The translations under genes and the position numbers were made by a program. Under the pieces are notes generated by a model. That model ran no database searches and had not been told where the DNA came from. It saw only the letters and a list, made by a program, of their open reading frames with translations. Below are positions 46,340-48,858 of a stretch of DNA of 53,746 nt, piece by piece; within the stretch, counting starts at the first letter, position 1, and every line of letters begins with the position of its first letter. The stretch is from NCBI GenBank assembly GCA_021325295.1, contig JAJPHM010000009.1, positions 1-53,746 of the forward strand, given 5' to 3'. This stretch comes from Nitrososphaeraceae archaeon (GTDB lineage Archaea; Thermoproteota; Nitrososphaeria; Nitrososphaerales; Nitrososphaeraceae).

Positions 46340-46629
46340 ACATTTTAAGTCAAGTAGACATTCTTTGCTTGCGATTCTGTTGTTTGCTTTCTGCCAATCC
46401 TTTTAGGTAGGCCGCCATTCATTTAATCGAGGAAGGTAAATTCTCCTGATTTCTAGAAATGGTAGATCTAGAAGTCGTCTCGTAAATCGCATTGTAAGGC
46501 AATAGATCTATGGCCATTCGTAAGGTCAAGCATGTTCCGATGCTGCAATGGATTTTTTCTGCATCCTGACTATTTATGAGACAAGTTCTAGTAATCAAAG
46601 AATAGATTTGGATCTAATTAATTAATCAA
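46340..46629. other. 290-nt intergenic stretch
   Basis: No gene is supported. A short frame reading MAIRKVKHVPMLQW at about 46510 may be a fragment or chance. There is an AT-rich tract with a TTAATTAATTAATCAATTAG-like run at about 46611-46630 just past the end of the minus-strand zinc protein, consistent with its terminator region. Confidence 0.35.
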
Positions 46630-46842
46630 TTAGTTACGAGTCATTCGCTCTGCGGCGCATCCATGCTCTTGAAAACAAACAGGGCAAAAGAATGAGCCGC
46701 ATATACATCGATTCAGATTTGGATTAGGTAAACAGCACACGTAGCATAAAGCTGGCATAGGCATTGCAATGGTATGTGATATATCTTCATCTTGTTCTTC
46801 AACTTGCTGAATATGTTGATCATTCAATTTAGGGCTGCTCAT
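46630..46842 (-). CDS. small cysteine-rich zinc-binding protein
   Basis: 70 residues with seven cysteines and one histidine in the second half: CYVC, C, C-x-C, CPVC and EHGC arranged as CYVCCLPNPNLNRCICG and then FFCPVCFQEHGC. This resembles HIT-type or B-box zinc fingers that mediate protein-protein contacts. The first 30 residues are acidic and disordered. ATG start, with a GATTTATAGC TATA-like box about 38 nt upstream. No family assigned with certainty. Confidence 0.65.
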   Translation of the reverse strand: MSSPKLNDQHIQQVEEQDEDISHTIAMPMPALCYVCCLPNPNLNRCICGSFFCPVCFQEHGCAAERMTRN

Positions 46843-46984
46843 ATTCTGTTATAGTACGAATACAGCAAACATAATGATGCTATAAATCTAGTGTGAAAAG
46901 CGTGAAAAGAGATCGACAAAGTATTAGAATCAAAGCACTCCAATTATTATAAAAGCACACGTATCAGTCCAGGAAAGGGATAAT

Positions 46985-47550
46985 TTATCGTCCTAGTGCA
47001 AGGTTTGCCATTATAAAAATTAGAGCAACCTGAAAAATTCCTTGGCTTCCAGAGATTTTTACATTTCTCATTCCCTATCTGATAATTCTATCTCTGTCCG
47101 GGTCCCTTTTTCTTACTTCGAGATATACCTTAAGTTCGGTAGGCAGAATCATTCCAAAACCCTGTACTGACAGGATAACCACGATTACAACAGCTGCTAT
47201 GATAAATGGGGATGAAAAACTAAGTATTCCCATTCTTTGGGCCATATTAATCCCAGAAGTGATTGCGGCAGTAGCCAAAGCGAGCATTAGGAACAACATT
47301 ACTGGAACTAGCTTCTTGAGAACATGGGTACGTGAATCAGGTTCAAGTCCCCTGAGAACTCTGCTCATGACTATGCCCATAAAGAGGTCAATGCCGGTCC
47401 ATGTTCCACCTGTCAGAACATGGACGTAATCCAAAGCCAAGATATTTCCGAAAGCGCTGTAGCGAGACCAATGAGAGGAACTGCCAGCGTTATTATGGAA
47501 TATGGCGATACAATTCTATTGCTATCAGTAGAAGTTCTATTCTCAGGCAA
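46985..47550 (-). pseudogene. membrane-protein gene broken by a frameshift and an in-frame TAG
   Basis: The gene starts at TTG 47550 (MPENRTSTDSNRIVSPYSII), placed by a GTTTATTTAAGG TATA box 30 nt upstream. It reads LAVPLIGLATALS to about 47464, where a 1-nt deletion shifts the frame; it resumes as FGNILALDYVHVLTGGTWTG and continues through membrane helices. A TAG at 47075-47077 interrupts it, after which the same frame continues GMRNVKISGSQGIFQVALIF and ends naturally at TAA 46985. Total length is one base short of 189 codons, as expected for a single deletion. About five spans; conserved His/Asp in ALDYVHVLTGGTW recalls copper- or haem-linked membrane proteins. Family name unknown. Confidence 0.75.
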
Positions 47551-47573
47551 TTATTTAGACTAACACTTTCGAC

Positions 47574-47584
47574 CTTAAATAAAC
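47574..47584 (-). promoter_or_regulatory. TATA box of the broken membrane-protein gene
   Basis: Minus-strand GTTTATTTAAG centred about 30 nt before TTG 47550; it supports the reconstructed start. Confidence 0.45.
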
Positions 47585-47780
47585 TCAGTACTGCATGATA
47601 TACAAAAGCCTCATAGAGACATTTCTAGTATTTTAGCATCAACCTTGAATCCAAATGGTTGTATCTGAATTGAAAACATTGGCTAATAATTCAGCATATC
47701 ATTTGACATCGTAAGTAGCCTTTTCATCTATCCGATTTATAGGCATGGTTTTTTCTTGCATTTTTCCTTCTTTCATAACT

Positions 47781-47853
47781 AGATAGCATAACAAGACTCA
47801 GAATATAGTAAGATAGCAAGTATCTTCAATTGATAAATAAAGATCTGCTATCT
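47781..47853 (+). promoter_or_regulatory. AGATAGCA repeat cluster at the cupredoxin promoter
   Basis: AGATAGCA occurs at 47781-47788 and 47811-47818 and its reverse complement TGCTATCT at 47846-47853. A TATA-like TTGATAAATAA (47829-47839) lies between them and 25-30 nt before the ATG at 47862. One site upstream and one downstream of the TATA box is a typical repressor layout. The regulator is unknown. The remaining intergenic sequence (47585-47780) shows nothing else. Confidence 0.4.
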
Positions 47854-47861
47854 TGGTTGCG

Positions 47862-48407
47862 ATGGTAAAAAAGAACTTTGGCAGTTCATCCAAGATAAGG
47901 ACTATGATGATAGCAGCTACAATAGCTGGAGTATTGATCTCGATAGCATTTTTGACAATACCACATTCAAGCGCAGGAACTGCTCTTGCAATTCCCTGAC
48001 CTACCAAAAACGGAACGCTTGCATTTGGCAGCAACATGACCATGCAATCTGAAAATACTACGGGCACTGCTGGCGTGACTAGTACTACTGCATCCGGCAA
48101 CAAGACATTTTATATATTCAGCTCAGAAGTTGATGTAGGAAACTTTACAGTTGGAATACCAAATGATGTCTATTCTCTGCCTATTATGGTCGTAAACAAA
48201 GGTGATAACGTCACTGTACACTTCAACGTAGACAAAGGAGGCTCACCACACACATTCATAATAGATGCACCCTACAATATCAACAAAGACATCAAACCTG
48301 GTCAGAATGCAACTGCAACGTTTACAGCAGACCAGCCAGGAATATTCTGGTATTATTGCAAATACCATGAACCGGCAATGAAAGGACAGCTAGTTGTGAT
48401 GCCATAA
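47862..48407 (+). pseudogene. cupredoxin gene with an in-frame TGA after the signal peptide
   Basis: ATG 47862 opens a basic start and hydrophobic signal/anchor (MIAATIAGVLISIAFLTIP, residues 16-34), reaching TGA at codon 46 (47997-47999). The same frame continues without a shift as PTKNGTLAFGSN into a Thr/Ser linker and a blue-copper domain with ligands His (GSPHTFII), Cys-x2-His-x4-Met (CKYHEPAM) and a typical GIFWYYC strand. Such domains shuttle electrons outside the cell membrane in ammonia-oxidising archaea. Without readthrough, only the domain from ATG 48030 or 48036 could be made, without export. It could be a pseudogene, a sequencing error, or recoding; the promoter looks intact. Confidence 0.75.
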
Positions 48408-48858
48408 GCAAGCATTTCTTTTATTTTTAATATACTGTAGCTTGCTATTACTCAAATCTAGTCGAAAGCATCGCTAGCCTGCAGACGCATGGCGTAGACC
48501 ATCTTTACGTACAGAAGTTGCCAGCGTAGAAGGACGGTTAGACCTTGCATGGATTTTCGACCTTTGATAATCATTTTGGATTTGTCATGGACTGCAAAAT
48601 TGTTTTGTGTAGCACATGCTTGTATAGCAGACAAGTTACTTTCTGGGTGGTCACCAACGCTTTTAGGTTGGTTCTCCGTTTCAGACCGTTGGGGATGAGG
48701 TAAGTTCGCTGCTCCAGGCTGAGTTAAAAGCGATGAAGATCTCGCGACGAACCGACCCAAATTCATATCTATTACCAGAAATGTTTATCACCAATGGATC
48801 CTTAACTCATTCAGATAGAACAGGAACGAAAACTGAAATCTAGTAGTGAAGTGATTGG
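48408..48858. other. 451-nt interval with a possible remnant
   Basis: A 102-codon minus-strand frame (48458-48766) starts MNLGRFVARSS and reads on as a polar, Gln/Ser-rich sequence without a domain. It may be the tail of a decayed IS605-type TnpB or simply an open frame; no zinc ribbon or catalytic motif is present upstream. No promoter or RNA gene recognised. Confidence 0.3.

Follow-up and report, generated by a model that had tools for sequence, protein, structure and literature searches.

The window analyzed here, a 53,746-nucleotide stretch of DNA from a soil archaeon of the Nitrososphaeraceae (GCA_021325295.1, contig JAJPHM010000009.1, positions 1 to 53,746), contains on its forward strand a single reading frame, 47862-48407, that runs through a signal peptide, an in-frame TGA, a linker and a cupredoxin domain. 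A preliminary description had proposed that this TGA splits the signal peptide from the copper domain, and translation from 47862 bears this out: it gives MVKKNFGSSSKIRTMMIAATIAGVLISIAFLTIPHSSAGTALAIP, a stop at 47997-47999, and then PTKNGTL through to CKYHEPAMKGQLVVMP, ending at the terminal stop 48405-48407. With ordinary termination at the TGA, signal peptide and domain would not be translated together. The promoter, described at first as intact, is at most a putative one: the only candidate is an AT-rich, TATA-like stretch (GATAAATA) about 25 nt 5' of ATG 47862. The features of the locus are as follows.

46340-48440, no strand assigned: stretch of about 2.1 kb between Pop5 and a conserved RNA-like block, absent at the same place in three relatives
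46469-46598, no strand assigned: dispersed repeat of about 130 bp inside this insert, with a 93% identical copy on another contig of the source genome (G000:C35:80186-80317)
46991-47550, minus strand: neighboring multi-helix membrane-protein gene, disrupted twice: frameshift near 47450-47456, TAG at 47075-47077
47862-47996, plus strand: signal-peptide segment of 45 codons, ended by the TGA; most family homologues show the same arrangement in an uninterrupted frame
47997-47999, plus strand: in-frame TGA in the linker, directly 3' of the signal peptide, at a hypervariable-linker column of the alignment
48000-48407, plus strand: linker and cupredoxin domain of CuA-like scaffold with a His/Cys/His/Met site, from translation and from profile and fold matches
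48249-48251 (His), 48357-48359 (Cys), 48366-48368 (His) and 48378-48380 (Met), plus strand: ligand codons, in invariant alignment columns

The part downstream of the TGA matches Pfam Cupredoxin_1 at 46.5 bits (cut-off 27), and AlphaFold returns a confident beta sandwich over most of residues 54-135, with the Thr/Ser/Asn-rich linker disordered. Consistent with the copper site originally described, all four ligands (His84, Cys120, His123 and Met127, numbered from 48000) are present and occupy columns that do not vary in an alignment of 17 sequences, and copper binding is predicted. The best match in both sequence and fold is the CuA domain of the nitrous-oxide reductase NosZ (1fwx; profile E 2e-14, Foldseek E 1.2e-8); the fold is also matched by a CuA-domain chimera bearing an amicyanin loop (5u7n). 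Unlike the binuclear CuA site of NosZ, which has two cysteines, the window protein has a single Cys and its ligand loop is short, and the rest of NosZ is absent. A mononuclear type-1-like site is therefore expected, and overall the protein resembles a CuA-type scaffold fitted with a short, single-Cys type-1-like loop. Nitrosocyanin is likewise a single-domain cupredoxin with detectable similarity (TIGR03096, 29.8 bits; 1iby), although this score is far under the NCBIfam equivalog cut-off of 142.85. The exported blue-copper proteins of thaumarchaea, termed "plastocyanin-like" in ammonia-oxidizing archaea, share the signal peptide, a Ser/Thr/Asn-rich linker and one H...CxxHxxxM domain, whereas in the copy described here a TGA follows the signal peptide and the Tyr of the HFYN motif is missing.

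Homologues within the Nitrososphaeraceae begin with a hydrophobic segment, followed by a linker that varies and then by the domain, all in a single open frame, at 42-52% identity to the window protein over the domain (52-53% for the closest homologue). The unbroken frame across the TGA, as first reported for this locus, is not a chance arrangement: most family homologues, indeed nearly all, have these same parts in one open frame, and for this reason the open frame spanning the TGA is ancestral. Because the TGA lies in a hypervariable linker that cannot be aligned, the codon that stood there originally cannot be read off from relatives. Across the domain's 123 codons, neither another stop nor a frameshift is found. 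The initial statement that everything is there except one codon is slightly too strong, as the Tyr of HFYN, present in all 16 aligned homologues, is missing here as a clean 3-nt gap. Together with a Thr to Ile change, this missing Tyr accounts for the 2 of 19 columns, invariant among the other 16 sequences, at which the window differs; the intact homologue L022 likewise differs in two invariant columns. Judged by this alignment, erosion of the domain appears not to be measurable beyond divergence, which would mean either that the stop is recent or that the domain is still made.

Were translation to re-initiate, or to start internally, at ATG 48036, the product would be a cytosolic cupredoxin lacking a signal peptide, and an exported protein would have become an internal one. 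This ATG is the sole in-frame internal ATG start ahead of the domain and opens a 123-aa open reading frame that contains the whole copper site, and one family locus, L155, has a shortened signal peptide ahead of an intact domain. On reading the sequence, though, no Shine-Dalgarno-like or TATA-like element is evident before 48036, most homologues keep the signal peptide, and the neighboring gene is broken as well, making an internal start a highly improbable explanation.

The in-frame stop previously attributed to the neighboring gene is real (TAG, 47075-47077, minus strand) and replaces a Trp or Leu of the homologues. It is accompanied by a frameshift, with the first helix lying in a different frame and the shift falling near 47450-47456. 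Homologues L047 and L048, from relatives G011 and G019, are intact, with open frames of 190-194 aa at 70-73% identity. The 29 codons past the TAG are still well conserved, and this gene, too, was therefore broken recently.

The surroundings of the two genes differ from those of related genomes. Three relatives (G011, G003 and G019) share the gene order Rpp30, Pop5, radical-SAM gene, with a gap between Pop5 and the radical-SAM gene of about 290 bp, 323 bp and 265 bp, respectively; the gap here spans 2,520 bp and contains both broken genes. As a whole, the insert looks like dispensable, lineage-specific DNA in decay. A copy from elsewhere in the genome was rejected as its source, the only matches found being the AT-rich repeat of about 130 bp (TTAATTAATTAA) and a 46-bp partial match on contig C68, and so was a viral origin, as the segment has no relative among viral contigs. 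A 42-bp DNA match between window positions 47721-47762 and an MFS gene of another genome (G007) is probably due to chance or is a small remnant. Separately, a block of about 70 nt upstream of the radical-SAM gene (window ~48690-48760) is shared by 13 relatives at 79-95% identity and matches nothing in Rfam. Its sequence resembles a double C/D-box guide RNA (GGGATGAGG ... CTGAG ... C[G/T]ATGA ... CYGA), and a 12-mer complementary to part of its second putative guide has no other occurrence in the genome.

Broken copies of the cupredoxin are also found elsewhere in the family. The sole close paralogue in the source genome (contig C24, L003 ~1400-1890) has its signal peptide and C-terminus in one frame and its middle in another; the two apparent frameshifts cancel out, restoring the frame for the copper-ligand loop, and the apparent losses sit in a GA repeat and a G run. 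Among the 24 loci L144-L167, the signal peptide of L154 is out of frame with its intact copper domain, L155 carries a signal-peptide deletion with the copper domain likewise intact, and L164 is truncated; L224 is likewise truncated and L225 has several stops. In one copy from relative G034 (L226:328-636, minus strand), the Cys ligand of copper is replaced by Asp (FYDTSHQPTM), which suggests that the copper site has been lost. Relative G034 has several close family members, and G011 is without one.

The clustering of three lesions within about 1.1 kb, next to a nearly pristine domain, could also reflect base errors in the assembly, in which case the gene of the living organism is intact and the stop, perhaps along with the lesions of the neighbor, stems from poor local sequence. 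Further in favor of such errors, the source record is a 79-contig assembly, and both indels of the C24 paralogue fall in short repeats. We compared open frames from 800 kb of the G011 genome with about 307 kb of the source genome plus the window. Internal stops occurred in 2 of 71 conserved genes (~65 kb aligned), one of them the neighboring gene and the other a shadow frame opposite a 328-aa open reading frame, leaving the neighbor as the sole true disruption among the 71. Apparent stops in other sampled genes, where inspected, proved to be in antisense shadow frames or outside the gene. The small number of core-gene disruptions, together with three lesions in ~1.1 kb, fits pseudogenes better than it fits uniform error: the lesions hit accessory genes, as pseudogene lesions do, whereas errors would strike core genes too, and the stops in both genes, being of the substitution type, do not stem from homopolymer errors. 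The base error suggested at the outset is thus disfavored in the form of a generally error-rich assembly, while errors confined to this locus could still have occurred; we consider it unlikely that base errors explain the stop.

Read-through of the TGA, whether as regulation or as leaky decoding, would supply a small amount of full-length exported protein, and the frame downstream of the TGA is indeed open and conserved. In-frame stops under purifying selection are reported for bacteria in one study (PMC7918605). In the source genome, however, TGA is a normal and common stop, terminating 27 of 68 sampled conserved genes at homologous ends, and its reassignment to an amino acid was rejected. 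A search of the genome for tRNA-Sec gave no match above threshold, with two weak matches identified by ARAGORN as tRNA-Arg and tRNA-His, and RNA folding past the TGA (47980-48120) is no better than that of shuffled sequences (z 0.38); selenocysteine recoding was rejected on these grounds. While archaeal selenocysteine recoding shares with this locus an in-frame UGA followed by an open frame, the UGA here lies in a non-conserved linker rather than at a catalytic site, and homologues are without Cys or UGA at that place. A review of archaeal recoding describes as demonstrated only selenocysteine and pyrrolysine read-through, along with one frameshift case (PMC8211752). The recoding option raised in the preliminary description found no positive support in these results, and read-through appears extremely unlikely; if it did take place, it would be an unexpected case of recoding in archaea. 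The separation of signal peptide from domain does recur in the family, at L154 and L155, but that the stop is kept on purpose, for a low-level read-through product or a cytosolic form from 48036, seems to us very doubtful.

Four things are observed directly: the TGA itself, a frame that was ancestrally open, the damage to the neighbor and, in three relatives, the lack of the insert. From these we conclude that the cupredoxin gene is likely a recent nonsense pseudogene standing beside an independently broken gene. Of the three options originally offered, a nonsense mutation is the best supported, given the adjacent doubly broken gene, the lineage-specific insert and the broken members of the family. 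We propose that a TGA arose in the linker of an accessory, lineage-specific gene whose product was a blue-copper protein with a single domain, destined for export. If translation ends there as usual, just the 45 residues of the signal-peptide segment would be made, export of a copper protein would not be expected and the function of the gene would be lost. Selection on the ~2.1-kb insert may have been relaxed, and the adjoining membrane-protein gene has independently acquired its two disabling lesions, both genes lying in DNA that is absent from relatives between the genes for RNase P proteins and the radical-SAM gene. The good conservation of the domain counts against a pseudogene, such that the decay would have to be recent or some expression would have to persist. 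The underlying biology is probably ordinary.

In ammonia-oxidizing archaea, many copper proteins are believed to take over the electron-carrier role of cytochromes (PMC7785015). The broken copies described here suggest that the small exported cupredoxins of this family are readily gained and lost, and a raw count of such genes would therefore be a poor guide to electron-transport capacity.
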